This document shows positions 1,419-31,522 of a stretch of DNA of 64,000 bases, piece by piece. Position 1 is the first letter of the stretch. Every line of letters starts with the position of its first letter. This stretch comes from Corynebacterium lizhenjunii. Its GTDB lineage: Bacteria; Actinomycetota; Actinomycetes; Mycobacteriales; Mycobacteriaceae. The translations under genes and the position numbers were made by a program. The DNA lies in assembly GCF_011038655.2 (NCBI RefSeq), contig NZ_CP064954.1, forward strand, positions 2,232,001 to 2,296,000, written 5' to 3'. The notes under the pieces were generated by a model that was not told the origin of the DNA, made no database searches, and saw only the letters and a list, made by a program, of their open reading frames with translations.

Positions 1419-1575
1419 TCTGCTGATGCCCGAGCGTGCCGATGCCTCCTCTGCCCACTCACCGCTCCCACCCCACTGCCCACAGTGAGGCCATGGGACC
1501 TTGCGCTTACGCGAAGTCCTGATACACTTGTGGGCAACAGTTTGGTTGCTAGCAGCGGCTAGGCTGGAAAATGAA

Positions 1576-1611
1576 GGAATCCCCAGCCAACCGGTATTGA
1601 CTGAGGATTCC
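1576..1611 (-). terminator. 3' hairpin of peptide unit A (left array)
   Basis: Read on the minus strand, GGAATCCTCAGTC pairs with GGCTGGGGATTCC across a 10-base loop, a few bases after the stop of the peptide gene. No T run follows, so it may be a 3' stabiliser or a T-poor terminator. The stem bases differ from those in the right array, but pairing is kept. Confidence 0.6.
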
Positions 1612-1617
1612 CCGGAC

Positions 1618-1782
1618 CTAATGGCCCGTGTGAAGCATGGCGTTAACCAGCTCCACAATTGCGGTCGCAAGACCAGTGAGCTCGCTCACCAGCTTGATCT
1701 TTGCGGGATCGCTGGGGGCGAGTTTCTTCTGCTCGCGACCGGGCATGCGCCGTGGGCGCTTCCGCTTGGAATGCTTACCCAT
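1618..1782 (-). CDS. 54-aa cationic/amphipathic peptide, left array copy A
   Basis: ATG at 1782-1780 is preceded by GGGAGGTGCAAC, a strong ribosome binding site; TAG at 1620-1618. The product has two halves. Residues 1-20 (MGKHSKRKRPRRMPGREQKK) carry at least eleven Lys/Arg. Residues 24-51 are mainly hydrophobic, with polar residues at K30, S33, E34, T40, E44, N47 and H51, the 3-4 spacing of an amphipathic helix. The peptide ends HTGH. No cleavable signal peptide, lipobox or cysteine is visible. The frame is open upstream to a GTG at 1887, which would give an 89-aa form, but the strong binding site and cross-array conservation fix the start at MGKHS. Function unknown; candidates are a surface-active or bacteriocin-like peptide, a porin-like peptide or a type I-like toxin. 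Confidence 0.8.
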   Translation of the reverse strand: MGKHSKRKRPRRMPGREQKKLAPSDPAKIKLVSELTGLATAIVELVNAMLHTGH

Positions 1783-1955
1783 GTTGCACCTCCCTTCGTC
1801 GGGGGTTGGTTCCCTCGCCAGATATGGCGCGCGGAAACATGGCCCACGAAGACGCGCGGACCTACCGCGCACCGACGAGGAAGTCACTCCTACTTAAGGC
1901 TTAAAGGTCGTGGGACCCCCAAGCGCACCGTGTTTGTGAACCGTCTCCTAGATTA
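1783..1955 (-). promoter_or_regulatory. Promoter and structured leader of peptide copy A
   Basis: A -10-like TAATCT (1955-1950) lies about 8 nt before the conserved GGTTCACAAACACGG, the likely RNA 5' end near 1942. The leader of about 160 nt contains TGACTTCCTCGTCGGTGCGCG, shared with the right array, then a stem GGTCCGCG/CGTGGGCC with loop CGTCTT, and a second stem CGCCA/TGGCG. These stems occupy the same positions as stems of different sequence in the right-array leaders. Confidence 0.6.
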
Positions 1956-2090
1956 GTGGTGCTCTCTTCGGTTGTCGAGGGGCGGTAATGCCTCCGGGTG
2001 ATTCGTGTGGGAGGCTTGCACTTACGCACAGTCCTGATACACTTGTGGGCAACAGTTTGGTTGCTGGTCGCGGCCAGGCTGGAAAATGAA

Positions 2091-2127
2091 GGAATCCCCA
2101 GCCAGGGGTTAGCTGACTGAGGATTCC
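2091..2127 (-). terminator. 3' hairpin of peptide unit B (left array)
   Basis: Minus-strand GGAATCCTCAGTC pairs with GGCTGGGGATTCC. The stem is the same as in copy A, but the loop differs in sequence and length (GCTAACCCCT region). No T run. Confidence 0.6.
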
Positions 2128-2133
2128 TCGGAC

Positions 2134-2298
2134 CTAACGGCCCGTGTGAAGCATGGCGTTAACCAGCTCCACAATTGCGGTCGCGAACCGCGTCAACTCG
2201 CTCACCAGCATTAGGATTGCAGTCCAGCTGGGGGCGAGTTTCTTTTGCTCGCGACCGGGCATGCGCCGTGGGCGCTTCCGCTTGGAATGCTTACCCAT
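2134..2298 (-). CDS. 54-aa cationic/amphipathic peptide, left array copy B
   Basis: Same start context as copy A (GGGAGGTGCAACATG), ATG at 2298-2296, stop at 2136-2134. Residues 1-24 are identical to copy A. Residues 25-30 are replaced (WTAILM for DPAKIK) and residues 37-38 read RF for GL, then ATAIVELVNAMLHTG is again identical, ending in Arg rather than His. The variation is therefore confined to the middle of the helix. W25 here matches W25 of most right-array peptides. The upstream in-frame extension reaches position 2409. Function unknown; see copy A. Confidence 0.8.
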   Translation of the reverse strand: MGKHSKRKRPRRMPGREQKKLAPSWTAILMLVSELTRFATAIVELVNAMLHTGR

Positions 2299-2472
2299 GT
2301 TGCACCTCCCTTCGTCGGGGGTTGGTTCCCTCGCCAGATATGGCGCGCGGAAACATGGCCCACGAAGACGCGCGGACCTACCGCGCACCGACGAGGAAGT
2401 CACTCCCACTTAAGGCTTAATGGCCGTAATGACCCCCAAGCGCACCGTGTTTGTGAACCGTCTCCTAGATTA
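2299..2472 (-). promoter_or_regulatory. Promoter and structured leader of peptide copy B
   Basis: -10-like TAATCT at 2472-2467, GGTTCACAAACACGG from about 2459, then the leader seen in copy A. It differs mainly by a few bases near TTAAGCCTTAA, close to 2405-2420. The binding site GGGAGG faces an upstream C-rich stretch (ACCCCCGACGAAGGGAGG) that could pair with it. Confidence 0.6.
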
Positions 2473-2605
2473 GTGGTGCTCTCTTCGGTTGTCGAGGGGC
2501 GGTAATGCCTCCGGGTGATTCGTGTGGGAGGCTTGCGCTTCTTTGTCGTCACGTTATACTGGGGTCAACAGTTTGGGTGCTAGCAGCGGCCAGGCTGGAA
2601 ATGAA

Positions 2606-2642
2606 GGAATCCCCAGCCAGGTGCGAATTGACTGAGGATTCC
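2606..2642 (-). terminator. 3' hairpin of peptide unit C (left array)
   Basis: Minus-strand GGAATCCTCAGTC pairs with GGCTGGGGATTCC around a loop from the ATTCGCACCT region. It follows the peptide stop codon by about 6 nt, as in the other units. Confidence 0.6.
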
Positions 2643-2648
2643 TCGGAC

Positions 2649-2813
2649 CTAACGGCCCGTGTGAAGCATGGCGTTAACCAGCTCCACAATTGCGGTCGCA
2701 AGACCAGTTAGCTCGCTCACCAGCTTGACCTTTGCCGGGTTGCTGGGGGCGAGTTTCTTCTGCTCGCGACCGGGCATGCGCCGTGGGCGCTTCCGCTTGG
2801 AATGCTTACCCAT
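2649..2813 (-). CDS. 54-aa cationic/amphipathic peptide, left array copy C
   Basis: ATG at 2813-2811 after GGGAGGTGCAAC; stop at 2651-2649. It is nearly identical to copy A, with N25 and V29 in the variable centre (SNPAKVKLVSELT) and Arg at position 54. Codons of the first 24 residues are the same as in the other left copies, which points to recent duplication or gene conversion. Context and possible functions as for copy A. Confidence 0.8.
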   Translation of the reverse strand: MGKHSKRKRPRRMPGREQKKLAPSNPAKVKLVSELTGLATAIVELVNAMLHTGR

Positions 2814-2986
2814 GTTGCACCTCCCTTCGTCGGGGGTTGGTTCCCTCGCCAGATATGGCGCGCGGAAACATGGCCCACGAAGACGCGCGGACCTACCGCG
2901 CACCGACGAGGAAGTCACTCCCACTTAAGGCTTAAAGGTCGCGGGACCCCCAAGCGCACCGTGTTTGTGAACCGTCTCCCAGATTA
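2814..2986 (-). promoter_or_regulatory. Promoter and structured leader of peptide copy C
   Basis: -10-like TAATCT at 2986-2981 and GGTTCACAAACACGG from about 2973 are followed by a leader almost identical to copies A and B. This is the first unit of the left array in transcription order. Upstream of it only the broken fourth copy remains before the pilus terminator. Confidence 0.6.
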
Positions 2987-3022
2987 GTGGCGCTTTCCTC
3001 TGTTGTCGAGTGGTAGTAACGC

Positions 3023-3108
3023 CTCAACTATCGCTGTTGCGAAACGAGTTAACTCGCTCACCAGCTTGATCTTTGCGGGATCGCTGGGGGCGAGTTTCTT
3101 CTGCTCAG
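3023..3108 (-). pseudogene. Truncated fourth copy of the peptide gene
   Basis: Minus-strand translation gives EQKKLAPSDPAKIKLVSELT followed by RFATAIVEA. This corresponds to residues 17-44 of the peptide, with no start and no HTG end. The first part matches copy A and the RFATAIVE part matches copy B, so it is mosaic. The break lies about 15 bp before the terminator of pilus locus 1, which suggests that arrival of the pilus locus cut this unit. Confidence 0.7.
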
Positions 3109-3123
3109 TGATGACCTAACGGT

Positions 3124-3158
3124 CAAAAAGCCGGCCCCCGAGTGGGGGCCGGCTTCTA
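3124..3158 (-). terminator. Rho-independent terminator of pilus operon 1
   Basis: On the minus strand AGCCGGCCCCC pairs with GGGGGCCGGCT around the loop ACTC, followed directly by TTTTT. It lies about 60 bp after the stop of the tip protein gene. It is nearly symmetrical, so it may also stop plus-strand transcription. Confidence 0.9.
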
Positions 3159-3217
3159 TGGTTGCGGGCGCTGGATTATGGCCCGCAAACTAGACCCAGC
3201 AGATTAAACGCTGCACA

Positions 3218-6200
3218 TTAAGCCCTGCGTCGCAGTGCGTATGCGCATCCGGAGACTATCAGTGCCAGCGATGCCGCCAGCGGCAACCCAACGCCCCATC
3301 CGCCAGTTTGCGGCAAGGTACCAGTTTGGTCCTGGACGTCGGCGACCTTGATTATGCCCACCGTGTTGTTAGCACCACCAGCACCAGCGGTGATCAAGGT
3401 GCTGCCACCGTCGAGGATTCGCACCGCGGCCACATCCTGGCCGTTGCGGGTCTGCCACGCCGTGGTGAACTTAATAGGCTGTGAGAGCAGGCTCAGCCCA
3501 GCCGGTGCTTGGGTTTCCACCAACCAGTAGGTGCCCGGAGTCTTGAGCTCCACACTGAAGGTGCCCTGACCGTTGTCGTTCAACGCAACCGGCTCGGTGT
3601 TGGCCATGTCCAGCTCACCGGTCTCGGAGGCCGGGTAGACCGCGAAGTCAGCGCCGCTAATCGGGGTGGTTGCGCCACCTGCTTGCATCTTCACAATCTG
3701 GACCTGCATGTCCTTCGGTACCTCCGGCGGCGGGAAGTCCACACAGCCTTCATCCTCAAAGCCATCAACGGCCGCCTTGTTCAACAAGCCCTTGGTGTTG
3801 CCGGTACAGGTGCCCAGGTCTGGGTTCTTCTCCAGCTTGTCCTTGTCGGCGTTAAACTCCACTTCGACCCGGTAGGTCTCGGAGCGGCCAGCTTCTAGCA
3901 CGCGTGGTCCGCCCAGGATGTAGGCACCATTGGTCGGCTCAAGGGTGCTAAAGCCAGACTCGCCAGGGCGCTTGACCTTGAAGCTATTGACCGTAAAGGC
4001 TTCGGAGAACTGCGGGGTGTCCTTGACCTGGTTATAGGAGGTCTTGACCCGGCCAGTATTGGTGACCTTGACGTCATAGGTCACCTTGTACGGGCCGTTT
4101 TCACCAAGGGCTTCGACGTCCTTGCTATCTACGGTGCCGTCACGGTTGATGTCCACGGCGGACTTTTCTACCCGCACGTCACAGCTAGACGTAAACGTAT
4201 TGTTATTGGCATTGGTGTCGTGCTCATTGTTGACTACCGTGGCGGTATTAGCCACGCACTGCCCTCGGGCTTGCGCCGTCAGCTGGGCACTTACACGCAC
4301 GCTCACCTGCGGGCGGGTATCGCCTTGGGCTCGCGCAGGCAAGTTACCGAACTCTAAGGTCAAGCCGTTGGCGTAGCGCTTTTCCACGAAAGGAATGTTG
4401 GTGCCGGTGTTATCCACCACCTCTTCCCTGCGCAGGTCAGTAAAGCCAGCTTCCACGGTGTCGTGCAGGCTAAATCCGCTCAGGCCATCGGGGCCGTTAT
4501 TCCAGGCGTCGATCCACCAGTAGATCCGTCCGTCCCTGATTTCCTCACGGCGCTTGACAATCTCCAGGTCAGTCTTGAACGTAGGCTTCGGCATGTTGTA
4601 GCCGTTAGAAGTACCGTTGGTGTTGTATGCCGCTGGTGCATTTCGGTCCACGCTGGCCAGGGTAAACCTGGGGTTCGCACTCGTCGGGTTCTCCACCCGA
4701 ATACGGATCACGTCAGAGGACTGTCCACTAGAACCGGTACCAAAGCCCAGGGTGCCATCACTGTATGTCCATGCCTTCGACCACTGGTGGTTCAGGGGAA
4801 TCCTTGCACCATACCTGGTGCTCAAGCTCGTGATGTCCCACCGTTGGCTCTGTCCGTTATCCAAATTGATGCGTTCGATATAAACGGATCGAGCAGTTGT
4901 TGGCCGGGTGTTCATATCCAGATTGGAGTTCCACCGGTTGATAATGCCCCACGCATAGTTTCCGGTATCCGGAAGCATGGCGTAGTCCTCGGAAGCAGTG
5001 CGGTACCGCTTGCCATAGTCACCGGGAGCACGCGGTGGCTCGGAGGAAGAGAACTGGTAATCCGTGCGGGCAGAGACACTGTTCAAGTCCACGCTGTAGA
5101 GCGCACCCGTACCAGACAGCGATCCATTGGTCACCCAGTAACGTCCGTTAGCATCGAAGAAGCCGACGTTGATACCGCCCCACAGGTCATTGGGCCACTT
5201 TTGGCCGTACTCACCTTGGAATCCGTACCCATTGTGGGTAGGAGCAGAACCGCCACCCTTGGTCACCTTGCCCAGGTCGTGGACCTCGCCAGTTACCGGA
5301 TCGATTTGCAGCAGGTGGCCGGCAGGACGGCAGGGATCTTCATAGAACAACGCGTTTCTGACATCGGTAAACGCCGTCGTGTCATTGCCATAAAAATCTT
5401 TACCAATGCGCGGCTGGCTAATTGCATACAGCCAGTTATCCTGCTGGTTATACGCCAAGGCGTTTACCACCCACGTAGTGGACTGTCCAACGGGTACGAA
5501 TGCACCAGAGACAGCGGTCTGCAGGTAGAGCTGGGAATGATCGCGCCCCTGATCGCTAGGCTGGGATGCCGTGACGTAGACGGAGGTACCGCGCTGGCGT
5601 TCCGCGTTGGTCAATTCGCGGGCAGGCTTACGCGAAACCACCTGGGAGCCTTCACCAACGCAGACCTCTGGCGGAGAGCCCAAAATCTGGTACTGGATCT
5701 GGCCAGGACCTAACGGGGAGGGAACCTCCGGGCACGGGCGGGCATCGCCAGTGTTGGTAAATTCCATGGTGACTTCAATCTTCCAACCAGGTTCTACCTT
5801 CTGGGCGGCCCCGGTGTGCAAAACGCCACCGCCATTGCCTTCGCCTTCCACAGCTTCGCGGATAAGCATCTGGCTACCGGCCCTATCACTCGGCACGACG
5901 GAACGGATGTACCTCTGCACACCACGGGAGTCCAAAAGCCTCACTCGGACGGGTCGACGAGTATCCAGCTGATAACCATTGCGGTGCTGAACTTGCGCCA
6001 GAATGGGTCCGCGCAAATCTCCAGTGCCCCTAACTTCCTCCGTCATGGTCATCACCACATTGGTACGGGTATTGGAGACTACCGTGGTTAGGTTTCCGCG
6101 GGTCCACCGGAAGGTGTTGTCCCTAAACTGGCAGCGTTCAAAGTTATCGTCAGCGCGATTGTCACCTTCGGTGTTCCCACCAGTTCCAGGGCCTGCGCCC

Positions 6201-6898
6201 TGGCCTGGGTCAGCCGGGGGATTCTGGTTTTCACCCGCGCCGGGGTTTTCGCCCGCGCCCGGATCCTCGGTACCCGGAGTCTCCGTCCCCGGATCGTCAG
6301 TGCCCGGCACCTCAGTACCCGGGTCCTGGTCCTCATCGCCGCCAGGAATCTCTTCCTCGGGAACGCTATTTACCTGGCCGATGGCGGTAATGCTATTCGG
6401 CCTAGCACCAAGACCCGGATCATTAATAAACGTCATTGACACCAGGTCGCCCCTGGTGACAGTCTTTCCGCCAGGAATGTTGAGGGTATAGGAGAAATCA
6501 CCCCGTCCACCTTGGAATTGGACACCATTGCGCGTATAGGTTTGATCGCCAACCCGCACTGTGACTTGTCGGTTGCCTGGTTGTAATGGTGTCCGGGGGT
6601 TGTTATAGGTGAACCTGAAGGTAATGCTGGTGATCGTGGCGTCGGCTTGCACCGTGCCCGAATAGATCATCGGACGACTAGGACCATTGCTAACTATCCC
6701 GTCAACAGACACCGGAACAGTGCCCTGCGCCTGAGCTTGCGGGGCGTTGCTGGCGGCATAGGACGCCAGGCTCAGCGCCAGCAGCGCCGCAGCGATGAAG
6801 GCGAAGAGTTTCTTCATCGCGCCAAGTGCTGCTGGGTGGGCCGGGTCCGCAGCTGCGGAACGGCTGTGAGAGGTGTTGCCATGTTTCACGTTTCGCAT
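3218..6898 (-). CDS. Sortase-anchored pilus tip protein of locus 1 (SpaF-like)
   Basis: A 1226-residue surface protein. Near residues 28-58 is a signal peptide core (KKLFAFIAAALLALSLASYA, then a likely AQA cleavage site). An N-terminal beta-rich region follows, then a Pro/Gly/Thr/Glu linker near residues 185-245, a GNLTT...EEV beta domain, a long region with propeller-like repeats (GYGFQGEYGQKWPNDLWGG), DUF11-like repeats (near 780-1080, with a Ca-binding-like DINRDGTVDSKD) and a CnaB-like domain with E-box YWLVETQAPAGL. It ends LPQTG, hydrophobic segment, RRRA, so sortase anchors it. I see no DxSxS vWA site, unlike some corynebacterial tip pilins. It is last in the operon and its ATG overlaps the sortase TAA (TAATG). 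An alternative start is Met28 at 6817. Tip role inferred from size and position. Confidence 0.85.
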   Translation of the reverse strand: MRNVKHGNTSHSRSAAADPAHPAALGAMKKLFAFIAAALLALSLASYAASNAPQAQAQGTVPVSVDGIVSNGPSRPMIYSGTVQADATITSITFRFTYNNPRTPLQPGNRQVTVRVGDQTYTRNGVQFQGGRGDFSYTLNIPGGKTVTRGDLVSMTFINDPGLGARPNSITAIGQVNSVPEEEIPGGDEDQDPGTEVPGTDDPGTETPGTEDPGAGENPGAGENQNPPADPGQGAGPGTGGNTEGDNRADDNFERCQFRDNTFRWTRGNLTTVVSNTRTNVVMTMTEEVRGTGDLRGPILAQVQHRNGYQLDTRRPVRVRLLDSRGVQRYIRSVVPSDRAGSQMLIREAVEGEGNGGGVLHTGAAQKVEPGWKIEVTMEFTNTGDARPCPEVPSPLGPGQIQYQILGSPPEVCVGEGSQVVSRKPARELTNAERQRGTSVYVTASQPSDQGRDHSQLYLQTAVSGAFVPVGQSTTWVVNALAYNQQDNWLYAISQPRIGKDFYGNDTTAFTDVRNALFYEDPCRPAGHLLQIDPVTGEVHDLGKVTKGGGSAPTHNGYGFQGEYGQKWPNDLWGGINVGFFDANGRYWVTNGSLSGTGALYSVDLNSVSARTDYQFSSSEPPRAPGDYGKRYRTASEDYAMLPDTGNYAWGIINRWNSNLDMNTRPTTARSVYIERINLDNGQSQRWDITSLSTRYGARIPLNHQWSKAWTYSDGTLGFGTGSSGQSSDVIRIRVENPTSANPRFTLASVDRNAPAAYNTNGTSNGYNMPKPTFKTDLEIVKRREEIRDGRIYWWIDAWNNGPDGLSGFSLHDTVEAGFTDLRREEVVDNTGTNIPFVEKRYANGLTLEFGNLPARAQGDTRPQVSVRVSAQLTAQARGQCVANTATVVNNEHDTNANNNTFTSSCDVRVEKSAVDINRDGTVDSKDVEALGENGPYKVTYDVKVTNTGRVKTSYNQVKDTPQFSEAFTVNSFKVKRPGESGFSTLEPTNGAYILGGPRVLEAGRSETYRVEVEFNADKDKLEKNPDLGTCTGNTKGLLNKAAVDGFEDEGCVDFPPPEVPKDMQVQIVKMQAGGATTPISGADFAVYPASETGELDMANTEPVALNDNGQGTFSVELKTPGTYWLVETQAPAGLSLLSQPIKFTTAWQTRNGQDVAAVRILDGGSTLITAGAGGANNTVGIIKVADVQDQTGTLPQTGGWGVGLPLAASLALIVSGCAYALRRRA

Positions 6899-7794
6899 TA
6901 CTTATTCTTTCGCAGAGTTGAACGCAGCCAGAGGCCAAGGACTAACAGAACCAAAAGGGCGGCGGCAAGAAATGCCCACATCCACCATTGCCAGTGGAAG
7001 CCAGAGTCTTCAAAGACTCCTTCTTCCTCCGGGTCCATGGGGACCCGTTCGGCATGCACCAACAAGCGGTGGGTGTTAATGCCATAGGGGGTACAGGTGA
7101 CCAAGGTGATCAGGTCTTTGCCTTCTACCCGCGCCAGGCTGTCGACTTCCTCAGGCAAGACGACATCAATGTCAAAGACCTGATACTTCATCTTCTGCCC
7201 GGCCACGTGCAGGTAGACGGCATCACCCACCGCAACGGTGGAGAGATTGTCAAAGAGCGTGGCATTTTGCAGTCCCGTGTGCCCGGTCAGAGCCGCGTGG
7301 CGGTTCTCCCCGCCCACGGGCAAGTCCGTGCCAAAGAGGTGACCCACGCCGCGCTGCAAGACCTCATGGCTGGTGCCGTGATAGATGGGCAGATTGATGC
7401 TGGCCTTGGGGATAGCAATTCTGCCCATCGCCTCATAGTTGGCCAGCTGTTGCTCATAGGCCTGGTATTCGGCATTGTGGCGGTCTTGTGTGCCGGACCA
7501 CGGGTCGCTCAGCGTTGCTTGGCCGCGGGTGGCGTTGTACTCCAGGGCATCGGAAAGCTGCTGGTCAATGACCTCCGGGGCTTGCGTGCTTTCAAACTGC
7601 GCGTAAGCATCTGCCACCCGGGTTTGCTGCCAGTTATTCCACTGGGTGGCCACCACGGGGTATAACAGCACGCACAGCCCGGCCAGCACCAACAGCACAG
7701 GGATGAGGACGTTGGATCCCTTGCGCCGCTTCTGCCCCTGGCCTGCGGGCGGCCCGGGCGGGCCCAGCGGTCGGTTGGTTGTTTCCACCGTCAT
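6898..7794 (-). CDS. Class C pilin sortase, locus 1, second sortase (SrtC-like)
   Basis: A 298-aa membrane transpeptidase that links pilins through their sorting signals. An N-terminal TM segment (VLIPVLLVLAGLCVLLYPVV) is followed by a lid motif SDPW, which blocks the active site in class C enzymes. The catalytic His is in ALTGHTGLQ, Cys in ITLVTCTPYG and Arg in HRLLVHAERV. A second C-terminal TM segment ends STLRKNK. ATG at 7794 is chosen because it follows the minor pilin stop by one base after an AGGAAGG binding site; a longer frame to 7860 would overlap the pilin. It is very close in sequence to the locus 2 sortase at 18826-19677, with the last 40 residues identical. Confidence 0.92.
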   Translation of the reverse strand: MTVETTNRPLGPPGPPAGQGQKRRKGSNVLIPVLLVLAGLCVLLYPVVATQWNNWQQTRVADAYAQFESTQAPEVIDQQLSDALEYNATRGQATLSDPWSGTQDRHNAEYQAYEQQLANYEAMGRIAIPKASINLPIYHGTSHEVLQRGVGHLFGTDLPVGGENRHAALTGHTGLQNATLFDNLSTVAVGDAVYLHVAGQKMKYQVFDIDVVLPEEVDSLARVEGKDLITLVTCTPYGINTHRLLVHAERVPMDPEEEGVFEDSGFHWQWWMWAFLAAALLVLLVLGLWLRSTLRKNK

Positions 7795-7795
7795 G

Positions 7796-12004: not shown

Positions 12005-13267
12005 TCAGAGCTCGCCTTGGAACGCGCGAACGGACAGTACAGCTTGAAGTTGCTTGAGTAAGCCCAGCTTTTCTTGCAACCTTCGAGTTACACATTCGAT
12101 GCCTTGGATAGTAGCTGCCAACGCGAGTTGCTCGATGGAACTCAATTCGGGGACTTGGATCTGAAGAAACGCAGATTGGGTTATATTTTTCATACTCCCA
12201 CCGCTTCCCATCGCCTTCGCACTAATCCGCGCTCGGACTTGCCTGTGCTGAAGGATCCCCACTAATGCGCTCGGTTCAACTGTGTCCTTCAGTCCGAGAC
12301 GCCACAATTTGTCTGGAAGATATAGGTTCGAGAAATCTCCCTTTACCAGCGCCGACGCTCCCACTAACTCCATAGTGTTAGCGCGGCTCACCAGAATATC
12401 ACCCCGGTTCACGGCATGGTGCGGAGCCGGCTCATAGTCGTCAGGCAATGGCTTGGATTCCTCCGGCAAGAACTCGCCGGTAGTCACCGAGCTTACTTTA
12501 AGAACTCGATTTTGAACGTTATCCGAAGCGGCCTCTTTAAGACTCTTTCCAGAACTTATGTCCTCAACGTAGTGCGACAGCGGACACTGGGGCTTTCCGA
12601 GGATAAATCGCTCAATTTCTGACTGCTTCAGTAGAAGGATACTCGATAGTTCATTCTGCGTCGCCTGTACATTCTGGGCAGCCTCATCAAGTAGTAATGC
12701 GATGCGGTGTTGTTCCTCCAGCGGTGGGAGGGGGAATGGAATCGCTTCAAAGACTGTCTTTCGAATTGATGGCACGGAGGTAGTTGATGCGTATTGGTAA
12801 AAGTCAATGCTCCGCGACCAGGACAGCAGAAATGAAGAATCTACAAGAGTAGATGGTAAGAATGCGAACAAGTTGTTATCTATACATGACTCTTGAGCGA
12901 CGAGTGCGCGCCGATTAAGTCTTATTGCCTCGCCAATTTTAGCAAAAACCAAAGATCCACATGGAATGACTTTAGCTTTGAGTTCTTGGGAAATATCTTC
13001 ATTGATGTAGTCAGCCGCAACAGTGAGCTGCCCTCTGAAATTCGCGTTCTTAAGACTCCCAACTTTGAAAAACGGATACCTTCCCTGCTCTATTCCTTGG
13101 TAACGCTTAGGGAAGCCCATTCCACCTACAAATGTCCCCAATGACCCCCACCGAACCCACTTCCAGCTTTCAGGTATCGAATGCGGCTGCTCATTCTTAG
13201 GCACGAGTGCCTTGTCAGGAATCCTGTTGAAGTCCTCAATACGTGGGTAAATTCCATTGCGTGCCAT
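12005..13267 (-). CDS. hsdS: Type I restriction-modification specificity subunit HsdS
   Basis: A 420-aa DNA recognition subunit with two target recognition domains, each followed by a long helix. TRD1 spans about residues 30-190 and ends in IPFPLPPLEEQHRIALLLDE. TRD2 spans about 230-390 and ends in IQVPELSSIEQLALAATIQG. The repeated conserved ends and QxxI/L spacer helices are typical of HsdS. Its ATG overlaps the hsdM stop. No hsdR is found in the window, so only modification can be predicted. Downstream (11903-12004) I see nothing but purD debris. The DNA is less GC-rich than its neighbours, in line with horizontal gain. Confidence 0.9.
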   Translation of the reverse strand: MARNGIYPRIEDFNRIPDKALVPKNEQPHSIPESWKWVRWGSLGTFVGGMGFPKRYQGIEQGRYPFFKVGSLKNANFRGQLTVAADYINEDISQELKAKVIPCGSLVFAKIGEAIRLNRRALVAQESCIDNNLFAFLPSTLVDSSFLLSWSRSIDFYQYASTTSVPSIRKTVFEAIPFPLPPLEEQHRIALLLDEAAQNVQATQNELSSILLLKQSEIERFILGKPQCPLSHYVEDISSGKSLKEAASDNVQNRVLKVSSVTTGEFLPEESKPLPDDYEPAPHHAVNRGDILVSRANTMELVGASALVKGDFSNLYLPDKLWRLGLKDTVEPSALVGILQHRQVRARISAKAMGSGGSMKNITQSAFLQIQVPELSSIEQLALAATIQGIECVTRRLQEKLGLLKQLQAVLSVRAFQGEL

Positions 13268-20482: not shown

Positions 20483-20485
20483 GGT

Positions 20486-24820: not shown

Positions 24821-24854
24821 GCCATCTATCTTAACTGCCGGTAGGGTAAGACCC

Positions 24855-25286
24855 ATGTCTTCTGTATTTACCAAGATCATCAACGGCGAACTGCCCGGAC
24901 GGTTTGTCTACCGCGACGATAAAGTCGTGGCTTTTTTATCCATCGAACCACTGCGCTACGGGCACACCCTGGTGGTGCCCGTTGCCGAGGTAGACAAGTG
25001 GACCGACCTAGACGCACAGACCTGGGCGCACCTCAACGAAGTAGCCATGAAGGTGGGCAACGCCGTCAAGAACGCGTGGGATAGCCAACGTGCCGGCTAC
25101 ATCATTGCAGGCTTTGACGTCCCGCACACCCACATCCACGTCTTCCCCACCGACAAAATGGAAGAATACGACTTCAAGCGCTGCTATGCTGCCGATGCCA
25201 CCGATGCCGCCGCCATGGACGAGGCCGCCACCCGCATCCGCCAGCACCTGGGCACCGATACCGACGGCTACGTAGTGCAGGACTGA
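24855..25286 (+). CDS. HIT-family protein (nucleotide hydrolase/transferase)
   Basis: A 143-aa histidine triad protein with N-terminal [20 protein letters not shown] and the active-site motif HTHIHVFP (HxHxH). Such proteins hydrolyse or transfer nucleoside phosphoramidates or adenylylated compounds. ATG 24855 is chosen from family alignment; the frame is open further upstream but inside the purD start. A HIT gene lies between purD and the two-component genes in C. glutamicum as well. Confidence 0.93.
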
Positions 25287-25357
25287 GGGGCTCTAGCTAG
25301 GGGGCGCTTGCCGGGGGCTCTAGCTAGGGGGCGCTTGCCGGGGGCTCTAGCTAGGGG
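25287..25357. repeat. 27-bp tandem repeat, 2.6 copies
   Basis: The unit GGGGCTCTAGCTAGGGGGCG plus CTTGCCG occurs at 25287-25313 and 25314-25340, then 17 bases of a third copy. It fills the gap between the convergent HIT and sensor kinase genes and runs into the kinase stop codon. No terminator with a T run is seen between the two genes. Confidence 0.85.
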
Positions 25358-26787
25358 CCTGAGGGGGCATCGGCAAGCTGAGGCTGCTCAAGCTTAGGCA
25401 AAGCCACGGTGAAGGTAGAGCCCACGCCCTCCTCGGAGACCAAAGTGATCTCCCCGCCGTGCTGCTCCACGATGGACTTAGTGATGGCCAAGCCCAGGCC
25501 AGAGCCACCAGTATCGCGCGTGCGGGAAGTATCCGCACGGTAGAAGCGCTCAAAAATATGGGAGGCAACATCCGGGCTCATGCCCCGGCCATTATCCGTG
25601 ACATCAATACATACGTGCGTGCCCACCTCGCGCAAATCGATGCTGACCTCCGCGTCCTCGCCGCCGTGGCGTAGACCATTGCTGACCAAGTTCAACAACA
25701 CCTGGTGCAAACGGTCCGGGTCGCCATTAACCAACGGGATTCCCTTGGACTGATTGTGAACCTCCACCTTGCGGCCCGGAAAAGCCGCCCGAGCAGAGGA
25801 ACCAGCAGACAGCGCCAACTCCAAAAGGTCTACCGTGCGCAACTCCAGGCGATTGCCCTCCGCGCGAGTCAGCGCCAACAAGTCCTCTACCAGCAACGAC
25901 ATGCGGGTAGATTCCTCATTGACCTTCTCTAACACGCGGTCCACATCATCCGTAGCGCCCGAACGGTACAGCTCCGTGTAACCGCGCAAACTAGTCAGCG
26001 GAGTGCGCAGCTCATGCGAAGCATCCCCGACAAAGCGGCGCATCTGCTCCTCCTTATTCTGCGCAGTCTCCACCGAACGCTGAATCTGCGCCAACATGCC
26101 GTTAAGCGCCTGGGACAACTCGCCCACCTCCGTGCGGGCGTCCCACTTAGGCACACGTTTGTCCAGGTTGCCAGCCGCGATTTCCGATGCCGTCTTTTCC
26201 ACCACCTGCAAAGGGCGCAAGGCCCGCTGGATACCCCAATAGCTGACCAAGCTGATAATGACCAACACGGCGAAAGAAATGAGCATCTGGATAGCCGCCA
26301 GGCCACGCAGCTGGTTATTCTCACGCTCCACCCGCTTGGCCACCACAATGACAGTGCCGCCGTATTCAGTGGCAATCGCGCGCCACTGGGGGCTGTTCTT
26401 AGGCGAGGTGGCGCGGGTGCCATCCACCGGGGTGGCGTCCACCGTCTGCGGCGGGCCGTCGATGACCAAGTCCTCCACCTTCGGCACCGCCGACGGCTCC
26501 AAGTTGAAGTACTGCTCGCGGCCATTGGGCTGAAAACTAATCAGGGAGTACTCACTGGGCGGGTGGCGGGCGTTATCATCGCCCAACAACTCCTCATTGC
26601 GCGCCCAACCATTGACCGCGGCGCGCAGATCCTTATCCACCTGGCCATAGACAGTCTCCCGCATGATGGTGTTTACCGCCAGCGAGCTAATGCCCAAACC
26701 CAACGCAGATACCACCACCACCATGACCATCAAACTCACGCGCAGCGGCACTGACGTAGCCAGCCCCGAAGTCAAGCGGGAATGCAT
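25351..26787 (-). CDS. phoS: Sensor histidine kinase (PhoS-like)
   Basis: A 478-aa kinase. TM1 (near 15-40), an extracellular domain of about 120 residues, TM2 (MLISFAVLVIISLVSYWGI), HAMP (RALRPLQVVEKTASEIAAGN), H-box SHELRTPLTSL with the phosphorylated His, N-box LLNLVSNGLRHGG, and G boxes DNGRGM and GGSGLGLAI. It follows the response regulator by 3 bp. Its resemblance to C. glutamicum PhoRS, which controls phosphate starvation genes, is judged from the regulator sequence and the purD-HIT-kinase order, not from an alignment. The last residues (QLADAPSG) are encoded by the dispersed GCATCGGCAAGCT motif. Confidence 0.85.
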   Translation of the reverse strand: MHSRLTSGLATSVPLRVSLMVMVVVVSALGLGISSLAVNTIMRETVYGQVDKDLRAAVNGWARNEELLGDDNARHPPSEYSLISFQPNGREQYFNLEPSAVPKVEDLVIDGPPQTVDATPVDGTRATSPKNSPQWRAIATEYGGTVIVVAKRVERENNQLRGLAAIQMLISFAVLVIISLVSYWGIQRALRPLQVVEKTASEIAAGNLDKRVPKWDARTEVGELSQALNGMLAQIQRSVETAQNKEEQMRRFVGDASHELRTPLTSLRGYTELYRSGATDDVDRVLEKVNEESTRMSLLVEDLLALTRAEGNRLELRTVDLLELALSAGSSARAAFPGRKVEVHNQSKGIPLVNGDPDRLHQVLLNLVSNGLRHGGEDAEVSIDLREVGTHVCIDVTDNGRGMSPDVASHIFERFYRADTSRTRDTGGSGLGLAITKSIVEQHGGEITLVSEEGVGSTFTVALPKLEQPQLADAPSGP

Positions 26788-26790
26788 AAG

Positions 26791-27492
26791 CTAACTGCGC
26801 GGCTTTCGCAACACATAGCCCACGCCGCGCACCGTATGAATCAGCTGGGTCTCCCCCGTATCAATCTTGCGGCGCAGATAAGAAATATAGGACTCCACCA
26901 CGTTGCCGTCACCACCAAAGTCGTAGTGCCACACGTTATCCAAGATCTTTGCCTTCGACAGCACCACCTCCTTGTTCTGCATGAGGTAGCGCAAGAGGTT
27001 GAACTCCGTGGGCGAGAGATCAATGATCTCACCAGCCTTGGTGACCTCATGGGTGTCATCATTCAGCGTCAAATCCGCATACGTCATGGTGGCGTCCGCG
27101 CGGCCATCATCTGCCAGCTGGCCACGGCGCAAAATCACCCGCAGCCTGGTAATGACCTCCTCCAGACTGAAAGGCTTAGTCACATAGTCATCCGCCCCAA
27201 TAGTGAGCCCATGTATACGCTGGTCCACACTATCCTTAGCCGTCAAAAACAGCACCGGGCCATCCAAGCCCTCCTGACGCAACTTGGTCAGCAGCTCAAA
27301 GCCGTCCATGCCGGGCATCATCACATCCAAAATGTAGGCGTCCGGGTTAATCTCCCGGGCAACCCGCAAAGCCTCATTACCCGAACCAGCCGTATGCACC
27401 TCGAAGCCCTGAAACTTCAAGGACACCGTGAGCAACTCGACGATATTGGGCTCATCATCAACTACTAGGACAGTGACGTCTTTTTCTTCCAC
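26791..27492 (-). CDS. phoR: OmpR/PhoB-type response regulator (PhoR-like)
   Basis: A 233-aa regulator. The receiver domain has acidic pocket DDE (VLVVDDEPN), phosphorylation site in YILDVMMPGMDGFELL, and switch lysine in YVTKPFSLEEVI. The winged-helix DNA-binding domain has SPTEFNLLRYLM, GGDGNVVESYISYLRRK and HTVRGVGYVLRKPRS. The start is GTG at 27492 after AAGGAAGG. Operon with the kinase. The sequence is very like C. glutamicum PhoR as I recall it; the specific name is inference. Confidence 0.85.
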   Translation of the reverse strand: MEEKDVTVLVVDDEPNIVELLTVSLKFQGFEVHTAGSGNEALRVAREINPDAYILDVMMPGMDGFELLTKLRQEGLDGPVLFLTAKDSVDQRIHGLTIGADDYVTKPFSLEEVITRLRVILRRGQLADDGRADATMTYADLTLNDDTHEVTKAGEIIDLSPTEFNLLRYLMQNKEVVLSKAKILDNVWHYDFGGDGNVVESYISYLRRKIDTGETQLIHTVRGVGYVLRKPRS

Positions 27493-27673
27493 CAGAAAGC
27501 CTTCCTTGGTATGGGTTGGGGGTTATGGGTTTTGGGGTTAAAGGGCTAAACAACTTCAATTACAAGGCAGTATGCCATCTAGCCTATAGGAGGTTCTTCC
27601 CAGAAGCTGTCAGAATGCTGTGAAGGGGCGGCTGGGGCGCACGAAAGAGCACACGGAAGCGGGCGTAAACAAA

Positions 27674-27703
27674 AATGAACAAACATCATTAGAATAGTCA
27701 GCC
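27674..27703 (+). promoter_or_regulatory. Candidate promoter/operator of the DHA2 efflux gene
   Basis: The inverted repeat AATGA-N7-TCATT (27674-27690) overlaps a -10-like TAGAAT at 27690-27695, eight bases before the ATG at 27704. The leader would be very short. A TetR-type repressor often binds such sites, but none is encoded next door. The rest of 27493-27673 holds the divergent phoR promoter and nothing else I can identify. Confidence 0.35.
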
Positions 27704-29137
27704 ATGAGAACCCACCGATGGACTTTCTTCGCGGTCATTTCCATTGGCCTGCTGATGATTGGCCTTGATAATTCTATTTTGTATACCGCGCTGCCTACCT
27801 TAGCGACCGAGCTGGACGCCTCTGATACTGAGCAGCTGTGGATTATCAACGCATATGCACTGGTACTGGCCGGACTACTGCTAGGCACCGGCACGCTGGG
27901 CGACAAGGTGGGCCACCGACGCATGTTCCTGGTGGGTCTCGCGATTTTTGGTCTATCTTCCTTGGCGGCGGCCTTTGCGCCTTCGGCATGGCTATTGGTC
28001 GCCGCACGCGCCTTCCTGGGTCTGGGCGCCGCGGTGATGATGCCCGCGACGCTGGCTTTGATCAGGCATACCTTTCCCGATGAAGTCGAGCGCAACACCG
28101 CCATCGGCATCTGGGGTTCCGTGGCAGTCACCGGTGCGGCGGCCGGGCCGACCGTCGGCGGGTTTTTGCTAGAACACTTTTGGTGGGGATCGATATTCCT
28201 TATCAACGTTCCGATTGTCGCCGTGGCCTTTCTGCTGACCTTGTGGCTGGCGCCGCCCAACCAGCCGAACCCAGACAAGCACTGGGACCTGCCGTCGGCA
28301 CTATACGCACTGGTAACACTGACTGCCCTGGTGATGGTGATTAAATCCACCGCCAGTGCGCACTACGGCACCGCGGCAATCACACTGGGAGTGACCGTGG
28401 TGGGCGCGGTCGTTTTTGCGCTGCGGCAACGCAAACTGGACGATCCTCTGCTGGCGTTTGAGATCTTCCGTTCCCGGATTTTCAGCGGCGGCGTGCTGGC
28501 AGCCGGCGGGGCCATGTTCGGCCTCGCCAGCCTGGAGATGTCTACCACCCAGAAGCTACAACTGGTAGACCAATTCACTCCCCTGGAGGCAGGCCTAGTG
28601 ATCTCCGCCATGGCTATCGCGGCCCTGCCCACCTCCGTCCTGGGCGGCGCTGTGCTGCACAAAGTTGGCTTCCTGCCGCTGATTAGCGGCGGATTCCTGT
28701 TGATGACGGTATCCGCCGCCACCGTCTGGTGGGCCGGCGGGCGGGATAGTTTCACTGTCTTCGTCGTGGCGATGATCCTCGGCGGGCTGGGCGCGGGCCT
28801 GGTAATGTCCGTGTCCTCCACCGCGATTATCGGCGGCGCTCCCCTCCACCGCACCGGCATGGCCGCCGGCGTGGAAGAAGTTTCCTACGAGTTCGGAACC
28901 TTGCTGGCCATCGCCATCACCGGCTCTCTGGTGCCTTTCTTCATGGCACGCCACACTGACCTGTCCACCGATGCCCTCCACCAGCCCGACCTCCACAGCC
29001 TCGCCGCCCCCGCCTACAACAGCGGTTACCTGACCACCATCGGCCTCATGGCGCTGGTGCTGCTGACCATCACCGTGATTACCGTCTGGTGTTTCCGCGA
29101 CAACCCCAAGTCCGGATCACACGCGGTGGTGCACTAG
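27704..29137 (+). CDS. DHA2-family MFS drug efflux transporter (14 TM)
   Basis: A 477-aa proton-coupled exporter resembling SmvA/QacA-type pumps. The DHA2 start motif IGLDNSILYTALPTLATEL in TM1, the loop motif LGDKVGHRRMFL, and GAAAGPTVGGFLLEHFWW (motif C) are visible, with about fourteen hydrophobic segments. Substrate cannot be told; quaternary ammonium compounds or dyes are common for the group. No ribosome binding site is obvious upstream. Confidence 0.88.
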   Translation: MRTHRWTFFAVISIGLLMIGLDNSILYTALPTLATELDASDTEQLWIINAYALVLAGLLLGTGTLGDKVGHRRMFLVGLAIFGLSSLAAAFAPSAWLLVAARAFLGLGAAVMMPATLALIRHTFPDEVERNTAIGIWGSVAVTGAAAGPTVGGFLLEHFWWGSIFLINVPIVAVAFLLTLWLAPPNQPNPDKHWDLPSALYALVTLTALVMVIKSTASAHYGTAAITLGVTVVGAVVFALRQRKLDDPLLAFEIFRSRIFSGGVLAAGGAMFGLASLEMSTTQKLQLVDQFTPLEAGLVISAMAIAALPTSVLGGAVLHKVGFLPLISGGFLLMTVSAATVWWAGGRDSFTVFVVAMILGGLGAGLVMSVSSTAIIGGAPLHRTGMAAGVEEVSYEFGTLLAIAITGSLVPFFMARHTDLSTDALHQPDLHSLAAPAYNSGYLTTIGLMALVLLTITVITVWCFRDNPKSGSHAVVH

Positions 29138-29245
29138 TAAACGGGAGCTAGCCAGTGGCCGGGACGCCTAGGATGATTGGCCTAGACACCCCGGCGCATT
29201 GACGGGATGCTGTTCTTACCTTCGGGGACTATCGTTCTTCCGCCG

Positions 29246-29310
29246 ATGCGTAGCCCCTCTTCCTCCATGCGTAGCCCCTCCTCCTTAATACATAGCCCCT
29301 CTTCCCTAAC
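29246..29310. repeat. 21-22-bp tandem repeat, 3 copies
   Basis: ATGCGTAGCCCCTCTTCCTCC, ATGCGTAGCCCCTCCTCC with TTAA, and TACATAGCCCCTCTTCCC follow one another just upstream of the first unit of the right peptide array. The rest of 29138-29324 shows no gene. Confidence 0.75.
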
Positions 29311-29324
29311 GCGCGGGCAACCGG

Positions 29325-29518
29325 TAGAGTGTTGGGTGGTTCACAAACACGATTGACTCGGGGGTCCTCGGATTAGCCGTTAGGCAACCACGACGCTCGG
29401 GAAAAGAAATGGATGTGACTTCCTCGTCGGTGCGCGCCAAAGCCCGCGCCAACGTGGGCTAACTCCCGCGCTCCAAACGGGCGAGGGACCAACCCCTCCG
29501 AACGAAGGGAGGTGTGTA
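29325..29518 (+). promoter_or_regulatory. Promoter and structured leader of right-array copy 1, with 17-codon uORF
   Basis: -10-like TAGAGT at 29325-29330; RNA start probably near 29338. A small hairpin GCC-GTTA-GGC precedes an open frame 29409-29462 encoding MDVTSSSVRAKARANVG. Downstream are the stems GCCCGCG/CGTGGGC (loop CCAA), CGCTC/GGGCG, and CCCTCC-GAACGAA-GGGAGG; the last covers the peptide's ribosome binding site. Confidence 0.6.
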
Positions 29519-29683
29519 ATGGGCAAACACTCACTGAGCAAGCGCCCTAAGCGCACACCCGGTCGCGGAAAAGAGAACTCCACTGCCAGCTGGGATGCCA
29601 TCCTTGAGCTGGTCAGCGGAGTAATCTACTTCGCGGCTGCGATGGTGGACTTGATTAGTGCCATCATCCACCTGGGCCGCTAG
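29519..29683 (+). CDS. 54-aa cationic/amphipathic peptide, right array copy 1
   Basis: ATG 29519 after GGGAGGTGTGTA. The product begins MGKHSLSKRPKRTPGRGKEN (eight Lys/Arg), then a helix SWDAILELVSGVIYFAAAMV and DLISAIIHLGR. Polar residues D26, E30, S33, Y37, D44, S47 and H51 fall on one helix face. It lines up without gaps with the left-array peptides (same 54-residue length; MGKHS, PGR, S33, G53 kept). No signal peptide, cysteine or sorting signal. Function unknown: surface-active or porin-like peptide, bacteriocin, or type I-like toxin are all open. Confidence 0.82.
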   Translation: MGKHSLSKRPKRTPGRGKENSTASWDAILELVSGVIYFAAAMVDLISAIIHLGR

Positions 29684-29688
29684 GCCCA

Positions 29689-29726
29689 AGCGTCCTCAGC
29701 CGAAATCTACGGAGGCTGGGGACGCT
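29689..29726 (+). terminator. 3' hairpin of right-array copy 1
   Basis: AGCGTCCTCAGCC pairs with GGCTGGGGACGCT (one T-G pair), 12-base loop, 5 bp after the stop codon. CCATTTCC follows; no strong T run. Confidence 0.65.
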
Positions 29727-29891
29727 CCATTTCCAGCTTGCCCGCGCAAACGGCCAAACTGTTGCCCACAGTCTAGCACCACCAGCCAACAGCGCAACCC
29801 CCAAATTCTCGGTCAGAGAGACCTGCTCAAGACTAAAACCTCACCCTTCGCAGGGGGCCTAAAAGTCCTTCCCGCCGACACAATCAACAGG

Positions 29892-30083
29892 TATAGTGTT
29901 GGGTGGTTCACAAACATGCTTGACTCGGGGGTCCTCGGACTAACCGCAAGGTAACCACGGTGCTCGGGAAAAAATGGATGTGACTTCCTCGTCGGTGCGC
30001 GCCAAAGCCCGCGCCAACGTGGGCTGACTCCCGCGCTCCAAACGGGCGAGGGACCAACCCCTCCGAACGAAGGGAGGTGTGTA
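29892..30083 (+). promoter_or_regulatory. Promoter and structured leader of right-array copy 2, with uORF
   Basis: TATAGT at 29892-29897; RNA start probably near 29905. The small stem is ACC-GCAA-GGT, a base-pair change that keeps pairing compared with copy 1. The uORF at 29974-30027 encodes the same 17 residues but ends in TGA. SD-hiding hairpin as in copy 1. Confidence 0.6.
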
Positions 30084-30248
30084 ATGGGCAAACACTCACT
30101 GAGCAAACGCCCTAAGCGCACACCCGGTCGCGGAAAAGAAAACTCCACCCTCAGCTGGACACTCAAACTTCAGCTGACGGGCGGAGTAATCTACTTCGCG
30201 GCTGCAATCGTGGAGTTAGTAACTGCACTGCTCCACCTGGGCCGCTAG
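30084..30248 (+). CDS. 54-aa cationic/amphipathic peptide, right array copy 2
   Basis: ATG 30084 after GGGAGGTGTGTA. First 22 residues identical to copy 1. The centre reads LSWTLKLQLTGGVIYFAAA, then IVELVTALLHLGR. The most divergent centre of the right array; K28 and Q30 replace the acidic residues of other copies, so net charge is higher. Helix polar spacing is kept. Confidence 0.82.
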   Translation: MGKHSLSKRPKRTPGRGKENSTLSWTLKLQLTGGVIYFAAAIVELVTALLHLGR

Positions 30249-30253
30249 GCCCA

Positions 30254-30291
30254 GATATCCTCAGCCGAACTACCACGTGGCTGGGGATATC
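30254..30291 (+). terminator. 3' hairpin of right-array copy 2 (compensated stem)
   Basis: GATATCCTCAGCC pairs with GGCTGGGGATATC. The outer four pairs differ from copies 1, 3 and 4 on both strands together, while the inner pairs are the same. This is direct evidence that the RNA pairing matters. Confidence 0.7.
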
Positions 30292-30455
30292 CCATTTCCA
30301 GCCTGCCCGCACAAACGGCCAAACTGTTGCCCCACAGTCTAGCACCAACAACCAACAGCGCAACCCCCCCCAAATTCCCAGCAACCCCTACTAGAGGTCG
30401 GAACTTCGCCTTTCGTCGAGCCTTTGGCTCCCTTCCCTCGCTGCCGAACAACGAG

Positions 30456-30650
30456 TATAGTGTTGGGTGGTTCACAAACACGATTGACTCGGGGGTCCTC
30501 GGACTAGCCGCAAGGTAACCACGACGCTCGGGACAAGAAGATGGATGTGACTTCCTCGTCGGTGCGCGCCAAAGCCCGCGCCAACGTGGGCTAACTCCCG
30601 CGCTCCAAACGGGCGAGGGACCAACCCCTCCGAACGAAGGGAGGTGTGTA
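30456..30650 (+). promoter_or_regulatory. Promoter and structured leader of right-array copy 3, with uORF
   Basis: TATAGT at 30456-30461; start near 30469; small stem GCC-GCAA-GGT (G-T closing pair); uORF 30541-30594. The region upstream of the promoter differs from the other units (CTTTCGTCGAGCCTTTGGCT). Confidence 0.6.
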
Positions 30651-30815
30651 ATGGGCAAACACTCACTGAGCAAACGCCCTAAGCGCACACCCGGTCGCGG
30701 AAAAGAGAACTCCACTGCCAGCTGGGACACCATCCTAACGCTGGTCAGCGGAGCAATCTACTTCGCGGCCGCACTGGTGGACTTGATTACAGCCATAGTC
30801 CACACGGGCCGCTAG
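30651..30815 (+). CDS. 54-aa cationic/amphipathic peptide, right array copy 3
   Basis: ATG 30651 after GGGAGGTGTGTA. Residues 1-26 as in copy 1; the centre TILTLVSGAIYFAAALVDLI is followed by TAIVHTGR. The HTG end resembles the left-array peptides more than copies 1 and 2 do. Function unknown. Confidence 0.82.
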   Translation: MGKHSLSKRPKRTPGRGKENSTASWDTILTLVSGAIYFAAALVDLITAIVHTGR

Positions 30816-30820
30816 GCCCA

Positions 30821-30858
30821 AGCGTCCTCAGCCGAAATCTGCGGAGGCTGGGGACGCT
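30821..30858 (+). terminator. 3' hairpin of right-array copy 3
   Basis: AGCGTCCTCAGCC/GGCTGGGGACGCT with loop GAAATCTGCGGA, 5 bp after the stop codon. Confidence 0.65.
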
Positions 30859-31020
30859 CCATTTTCCAGCCTGCCCGCACAAACGGCCAAACTGTTGCCC
30901 CTCAGTCTAGCACCACCAGCCAACAGCGCAACCCCCAAATTCTCGGTCAGACCTGCTCAAGACTAGAACCGCACCCTTCGCAGGAGCCTAAAAGCCCTTC
31001 CCGCTGGCGCAATCAACAGG

Positions 31021-31211
31021 TATAGTGTTGGGTGGTTCACAAACACGATTGACTCGGGGGTCCGCGGACTAACCGCAAGGTAACCACGACGCTCGGGACA
31101 AATGGATGTGACTTCCTCGTCGGTGCGCGCCAAAGCCCGCGCCAACGTGGGCTAACTCCCGCGCTCCAAACGGGCGAGGGACCAACCCCTCCGAACGAAG
31201 GGAGGTGTGTA
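31021..31211 (+). promoter_or_regulatory. Promoter and structured leader of right-array copy 4, with uORF
   Basis: TATAGT at 31021-31026; start near 31034; small stem ACC-GCAA-GGT; uORF 31102-31155; SD-hiding hairpin as in the other copies. Confidence 0.6.
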
Positions 31212-31376
31212 ATGGGCAAACACTCACTGAGCAAGCGCCCTAAGCGCACACCCGGTCGCGGAAAAGAAAACTCCACTGCCAGCCGGATTGCCGTCCTTGA
31301 GCTGGTCAGCGGAGTTATAATTCTCGCGGCCGCACTGGTGGACTTGGTTACAGCCATAGTCCACACGGGCCACTAG
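31212..31376 (+). CDS. 54-aa cationic/amphipathic peptide, right array copy 4
   Basis: ATG 31212 after GGGAGGTGTGTA. Residues 1-24 as in copy 1; the centre RIAVLELVSGVIILAAALVD lacks the Trp25 and Tyr37 of the other right copies. It ends LVTAIVHTGH, with the same terminal HTGH as left copy A. Function unknown. Confidence 0.82.
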   Translation: MGKHSLSKRPKRTPGRGKENSTASRIAVLELVSGVIILAAALVDLVTAIVHTGH

Positions 31377-31381
31377 GCCCA

Positions 31382-31419
31382 AGCGTCCTCAGCTGAAATC
31401 TACGGAGGCTGGGGACGCT
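31382..31419 (+). terminator. 3' hairpin of right-array copy 4
   Basis: AGCGTCCTCAGCT/GGCTGGGGACGCT, loop GAAATCTACGGA, with one extra G-T pair at the loop end compared with copy 1. Confidence 0.65.
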
Positions 31420-31522
31420 CCATTTCCAGCCTGCCCGCGCAAGCGGCCAAACTGTTGTCCCACAGTCTAGCACCAACAACCAACAGCGCAACCGAAGCTG
31501 CCCCAGGTCGATAGGACAAGCC

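Follow-up and report, generated by a model that had tools for sequence, protein, structure and literature searches.

What is made by the very small, similar genes that lie in two inverted arrays on the chromosome of Corynebacterium lizhenjunii? We analysed a 64,000-nucleotide stretch of its closed 2.6-Mb genome (contig NZ_CP064954.1, positions 2,232,001 to 2,296,000; hereafter the window, numbered from its first letter). On re-reading, the seven intact 54-codon open-reading frames (ORFs) of the initial annotation were all present, each starting with MGKHS: copies A, B and C on the minus strand (2649..2813, 2134..2298 and 1618..1782) and copies 1 to 4 on the plus strand (29519..29683, 30084..30248, 30651..30815 and 31212..31376). 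A truncated extra copy on the minus strand (~3023..3106, profile match G000:C1:2235023-2235106) is the fourth of the minus array and the eighth in the window. The initial annotation had listed surface-active or bacteriocin-like peptides, porin-like peptides and type I-like toxins as candidates, and had held that sequence could not choose among them. Among these candidates the comparative evidence favours a type I-like toxin because of a conserved putative antisense promoter, a covarying leader, a location on plasmids downstream of resolvase genes and the presence of decayed copies. The RNAs, the peptide and its toxicity are predictions from computation on sequences, which covered the conserved promoters, covariation in the leader helices, conservation of the frame and of RNA pairs, linkage to plasmids and resolvase, and asymmetry between paralogues; on these grounds, we consider it probable that each unit works like a type I toxin-antitoxin (TA) module with a 3′-overlapping antisense RNA.

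Candidate antisense promoters and the encoded peptides

Every unit in the window carries a putative convergent antisense promoter, a feature additional to the initial annotation, which lies on the strand opposite the gene and past its stop codon, with the consensus TTGCRN-N16/17-TANNCT and a conserved CAG ~8 nt further on. For plus copy 1 it occupies 29770..29797 on the minus strand and reads TTGCGC (29797-29792), N16, TAGACT (29775-29770), with its counterparts for plus copies 2, 3 and 4 at 30336..30363, 30904..30931 and 31464..31491 on the same strand. The minus array has plus-strand equivalents at 2533..2560 (copy A, TTGCGC-N16-TATACT), 2016..2043 (copy B, TTGCAC-N16-TACACT) and 1501..1528 (copy C, TTGCGC-N16-TACACT). 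Using the search pattern TTGN3-N16/17-TAN3T at +50 to +150 after the stop, the antisense pattern was found in 40 of 46 complete, non-redundant units and on the sense strand in none of the 46, against a mean of 1.36 and a maximum of 5 in 200 dinucleotide shuffles. The 46 units leave out incomplete N-termini, starts <300 nt from the end of a locus and repeated or shortened flanks, and some of them are themselves damaged copies; before this filter 48 of 64 flanks held the pattern (spacer 15-18), 50-100 nt from the stop. Most subfamilies have the promoter at a nearly constant 82-99 nt from the stop, whilst one distant subfamily has it at 52-53 nt. Positions that the pattern leaves free are also conserved (C and R of the -35 element, C of the -10 element and the downstream CAG), whilst the spacer and flank are poorly conserved; this was read in the 14 of 18 representatives that match the pattern, the 18 having been hand-picked after the flanks were seen, and three of the four that miss it have a near match by eye. 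A weak terminator-like hairpin for the antisense RNA lies inside the ORF of minus copy C (1709..1721, plus strand) and a similar one lies in the truncated copy of the minus array (3081-3093), where a terminator scan of 1400-3250 gave 4 sites of all kinds compared with 1.9 (standard deviation 1.3) in shuffles.

The intact copies of the family encode 46-54 residues, placing them among small (<60 aa) ORFs. The seven window peptides share 21 invariant residues, 12 of which fall within the first 16 positions. The predicted layout of the peptides is a cationic N-terminus followed by a hydrophobic C-terminal helix, with mean hydrophobicity of the last 30 residues >0 in 41 of 43 distinct peptides (the remaining two are broken copies). 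The initial annotation described this helix as amphipathic, and amphipathicity reaches significance in three of the seven window copies (p < 0.05, C-terminal 30 residues). Five groups of peptide genes gave ratios of non-synonymous to synonymous polymorphism (pN/pS) of 0.43-0.64, suggesting moderate purifying selection on the peptide; this range and the collinear relatives in other species exclude chance ORFs. A frame broken by stops in most relatives, an outcome which the initial annotation had named as damaging to its case, was not what we found: 62 of 69 matches in the genus are stop-free within the matched part, although several are truncated. As the initial annotation had supposed, no family could be recognised, the seven window peptides being without a Pfam or NCBIfam match above cutoff. 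Rfam gave nothing at the gathering threshold across the whole window, and just low, chance-like matches under relaxed settings at 29300-31500.

Tandem copies differ unevenly along their length. Mean identity in the plus array is 99.5% in the leader, 97.8% in codons 1-20, 77.8% from codon 21 to the stop and 87.0% in the 3′ untranslated region (UTR). The same regions share 100%, 98.9%, 87.8% and 86.6% in the minus array, and 92.3, 88.2, 78.4 and 82.2% in the G168 C52 array of a second species (five of six copies compared), so that three of four arrays exhibit the 5′/3′ asymmetry between paralogues. In every row, an antisense RNA has its strongest predicted duplex with the message of its own copy because the two are perfect complements; the gap to the neighbour's message is wide among the window copies and narrower in some pairs from G168. 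Such asymmetry is what would be expected if the paralogues share a control cassette yet need private antitoxins, with gene conversion as an alternative explanation for the near-identical 5′ halves. A conserved N-terminal and a variable C-terminal half within most arrays would also suit secreted surface-active or bacteriocin-like peptides whose synthesis is kept low by a cis-antisense RNA, the N-half serving for export or as a leader and the C-half as the active core, and both the cationic N-terminus with its hydrophobic helix and the MFS and OPT transporters flanking the plus array agree with this. We nevertheless consider secreted peptides improbable, as the non-coding leader is as strongly conserved as the N-terminus, the peptides match no known family above cutoff, and in the fetched plasmid records no transporter is constant beside the unit, whose usual neighbour there is a resolvase gene (bacteriocin-type neighbours were judged by Pfam, which an immunity protein of unfamiliar type could escape).

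The leader and the predicted fold of the message

Each gene was annotated initially as a complete unit with its own promoter, leader and 3′ hairpin, and at the level of sequence this is borne out. In plus copy 1 a putative sense -10 element, TAGAGT (29325..29330, plus strand, letters re-read), stands 7 nt before the motif GGTTCAC, the structured leader follows at 29338..29518 (leader model R1 match G000:C1:2261413-2261521), and beyond the gene a terminator-like hairpin with a weak T run was identified from sequence and fold (29690..29725), which the generic terminator scan did not report. The leaders of plus copies 2, 3 and 4 lie at 29905..30083, 30469..30650 and 31034..31211 on the plus strand, and those of minus copies A, B and C at 2814..2973, 2299..2459 and 1783..1942 on the minus strand. 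A TANNNT box is found exactly 7 nt 5′ of GGTTCAC in 33 of the 35 units bearing this motif; the other 11 of the 46 units lack it, several being leaderless or truncated copies. From GGTTCAC to the start used, leaders measure 125-182 nt.

RNAalifold gave a consensus fold over 35 leaders (36 were listed and one frameshifted row was dropped), of which 26 were used in the covariation test on named helices. In these 26 leaders 98.8% of the cells in the named helices are paired, five pairs have changes on both sides (as many are reached by 6 of 500 shuffles), and none of the 500 shuffles or slid versions attains the observed covariation score. A cognate/non-cognate duplex test on 10 leader clusters supported the first (A-B) helix (2 of 5000 permutations). 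An alternative helix that would sequester the Shine-Dalgarno (SD) sequence is possible, and is formable in 92.8% of cells. The folds of two window mRNAs lie far below shuffles (z -7.4 and -6.5), and in full mRNAs from 15 chosen units the SD has a mean unpaired probability of 0.11-0.37; these models point to a toxin mRNA folded with its ribosome-binding site masked, with more than one candidate partner for the SD. Folding appears to extend into the gene, where the fourth pair of a predicted hairpin at codons 43-51 is A-T in 20, G-C in 7 and another combination in 7 of 34 distinct sequences (uncontrolled counts); its 3′ side is a synonymous base, which therefore often tracks its partner. A further pairing predicted by RNAalifold, between GTGACT in the leader and the nearly invariant CCCGGTCG in the ORF, was rejected after a weak result in the cognate/non-cognate test (521 of 5000).

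The leader covaries, folds strongly and is the best conserved part of the unit in most arrays, all of which could be expected if the RNA were itself the product, a riboswitch or regulatory RNA beside which the ORF is incidental. This seems very improbable when set against an ORF that keeps its frame and amino acids across wide divergence and a leader which, in the eight loci read, never stands before another recognised intact gene.

Distribution and decay of the units

The family profile has 17 matches in the genome, the seven window genes and ten more, intact or decayed. Outside the window there is a group at 53-55 kb, a pair at 2.331 Mb and single matches at 393 kb (truncated), 446 kb and 2.079 Mb. 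The pilus and purD genes that the arrays were initially described as flanking do sit between them, yet this placement looks incidental because further copies occur elsewhere in the genome. A protein search returned 16 proteins, 13 of the window type or close to it and three more distant ones of 49 aa; an initial contig scan with the 54-aa profile gave no match, and the 49-aa form of the profile gave 16 loci. The profile search of actinobacterial genomes that the initial annotation had proposed found relatives in 31 of 242 Corynebacterium genomes (ours included), some by weak or truncated matches, and in a sample of 396 genomes from the phylum our genome was the sole match. A second species (G168, loci L081 and L082) has arrays of its own, with versions of the unit that start with GTG. 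Another genome (G197, loci L096 and L097) holds a distant version of the peptide (MATKGEEPHGEKP...) with a possible antisense promoter 52-53 nt past the stop, and has no match to the leader covariance model.

Units also occur on plasmids: 14 of 72,556 records carry one, in one place each, 13 of them from Corynebacterium and one from Winkia, with pNG2 among them, whilst phage records gave no match to the unit. On these plasmids it is a small gene, annotated as hypothetical protein or unannotated, 3′ of a resolvase gene (pNG2 and others). Of 11 plasmid records fetched, 10 have the resolvase gene upstream of the unit and on its strand; the encoded recombinase is related to that of pNG2 and has PF00239 resolvase and HTH_7 domains. 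Linkage to mobile elements, which is common in type I TA systems without defining them, is thus present through plasmids and resolvase. In the C. aurimucosum genome paper, the pET44827 resolvase is read as ensuring plasmid stability (PMC2830990).

Some copies are damaged. The leader covariance model gave 52 matches in 25 of 242 genus genomes. Of the eight loci that we read, six had no match to the peptide. The gene is truncated or interrupted in G209, G247 and G211 contig 1; two loci in G168 and one in G004 are leader remnants which lack a family ORF and pass into other DNA (in G004 an apparent transposase fragment); G148 has a divergent intact ORF, and G234 has an ORF without a start. By eye, other DNA, resembling insertion sequences, stands in place of the gene's start in three named records and in G006. 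Four full-length ORFs in our genome have no leader match, and the antisense promoter pattern is retained in three of these. Another explanation is a small membrane peptide that is not toxic and serves the plasmid or the cell envelope (in copy control, transfer or stress), under regulation by leader and antisense RNA; it would agree with the plasmid linkage and the moderate purifying selection. We consider it improbable in view of the truncated, interrupted and leaderless copies, and the three leaderless ORFs with a retained antisense pattern look as if toxin expression had been lost first.

Separately, the G000:C1:53-56 kb region (L026) is a decaying array in which one leader precedes a truncated ORF, and it adjoins, by eye, an apparent transposase gene and a restriction specificity gene. 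In 397 genomes drawn from the order, the leader model had a single match beyond the genus (E 6e-4), which lacks an ORF of this kind and appears to be a chance match.

The proposed module and known type I systems

Taken as a type I module, a unit would operate as follows. The sense promoter would produce an mRNA of ~350-400 nt, and tight folding of its leader and coding region would hold back translation by keeping the ribosome-binding site mostly paired. The convergent promoter just past the gene would produce a small antisense RNA, at a guess ~180-190 nt long, complementary to the 3′ UTR and to the last two thirds of the ORF, by which the message would be blocked or removed. Were the module lost, the unstable antisense RNA would disappear before the long-lived mRNA, from which the 46-54-aa peptide would then be made; this peptide may insert in the membrane through its hydrophobic C-terminal helix (amphipathic in some copies) behind a cationic N-terminus. 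On plasmids, 3′ of a resolvase, this may serve plasmid maintenance, with the chromosomal arrays representing accumulated copies, some decayed. From the sequences we infer that both RNAs are made, where the antisense RNA ends and how long it is, as well as toxicity, membrane action and post-segregational killing.

Several observations weigh against the type I interpretation. For the peptide, significant amphipathicity (p < 0.05) over the C-terminal 30 residues is confined to 16 of 43 distinct sequences, so that an amphipathic helix fails for the family as a whole, and charge is N-terminal here and usually C-terminal in type I toxins (PMC6563280). The antisense -35 element is far from TTGACA, a generic sigma-70 scan reported no promoter in either array (the antisense sites included), the antisense terminator is weak and found in part of the minus array alone, and related sequences inflate the simple counts. 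In the leader, further pair types in the helices are reached by 45 of 500 shuffles, the helix counts lean towards leader helices because these were predicted from overlapping sequences, and the SD-sequestering helix has covariation hardly above shuffles with a marginal cognate/non-cognate test (218 of 5000 permutations). The 5′/3′ asymmetry is absent from the G168 C19 array (two of three copies compared), and the plasmid pCpho is an exception in lacking a resolvase of the pNG2 kind.

Hok, Ldr, Fst, TxpA, BsrG, Ibs and AapA showed no homology to the peptides through Pfam and NCBIfam (above cutoff) or Rfam, pairwise alignment not being part of the comparison. In txpA/RatA and bsrG/SR4 of Bacillus subtilis a small peptide gene with a long 5′ UTR is overlapped by a convergent antisense RNA. 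The layout and long 5′ UTR predicted here are alike in these systems and in CD2517.1-RCd8 of Clostridioides difficile, from which our units differ in the covarying leader of most copies and in their location on Corynebacterium chromosomes and plasmids. hok/Sok (plasmid R1) and par/fst (pAD1) encode plasmid-borne small toxins from tightly folded mRNAs and their chromosomal copies are often decayed; the units resemble them in being small and plasmid-borne, in decayed chromosomal copies and in the predicted tight fold. In hok/Sok it is the leader that the antisense RNA binds, and fst depends on direct repeats common to both RNAs; in 40 of the 46 units, which were compared for this, no consistent long repeat of the fst kind is shared between the leader and the 3′ flank. 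TisB, of 29 aa, is a hydrophobic helix with spaced charged residues and no cationic N-terminal tail, so the helix with its spaced charges is similar whilst the tail and the antisense layout differ. The aapA/IsoA peptide is not known to resemble the corynebacterial one. In Helicobacter pylori, aapA/IsoA forms paralogous type I loci with SD-masking alternative hairpins and a structural constraint inside the ORF (PMC6733600). Our units share the paralogous loci and, by prediction, a possible SD-masking hairpin and structure within the ORF, but their putative antisense promoter sits 3′ of the ORF. In the clostridial type I class the genes for toxin and antitoxin converge, the 5′ UTRs are long and the ribosome-binding site is sequestered (PMC6563280).

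Type I TA systems had been described solely from Proteobacteria, Firmicutes and Tenericutes until one case from Cyanobacteria in 2025 (PMC12390103), and a search of mostly non-subscription literature, outside which the 2003 pNG2 paper falls, found no report of one in actinobacteria. If confirmed, the module would bring one more phylum into the class and be the first RNA-controlled toxin family of Actinomycetota, the small gene downstream of the resolvase in pNG2 and other plasmids would have an explanation, and the evolution of antisense specificity could be watched in the tandem paralogues. A broader proposal, tentative as a whole and somewhat more doubtful than not when its parts are taken jointly, is of a type I superfamily that is specific to Corynebacterium and the plasmids of this genus and would be the first in Actinomycetota. 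In it a fixed, switch-like leader cassette would be joined to a rapidly changing half, private to each copy, which the toxin helix and the antitoxin have in common. This could make tandem paralogues orthogonal and partly stabilise widely shared plasmids, pNG2 included, and leaderless copies with an antisense promoter might act as anti-addiction antitoxins.

Nine ORFs scanned elsewhere in the window include an AAA_21 ATPase, a pilin, a sortase, MFS and OPT transporters, a histidine kinase, purD and a restriction specificity gene. The AAA_21 ATPase (84-1106, plus strand; putative AbiEii toxin in the Pfam text) adjoins the minus array, and a type I restriction specificity subunit (Methylase_S; 12008-13267, minus strand) lies between the arrays. 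Paired 38-bp imperfect palindromes (CTACTTGTATAAGTCGC...GTATCCAGGT), 85 bp apart, are present at 31523-31645 (plus strand) and 60636-60758 (minus strand); this ~150-bp palindrome element occurs in 11 places in the genome, one of them just 5′ of the leaderless 446-kb copy.

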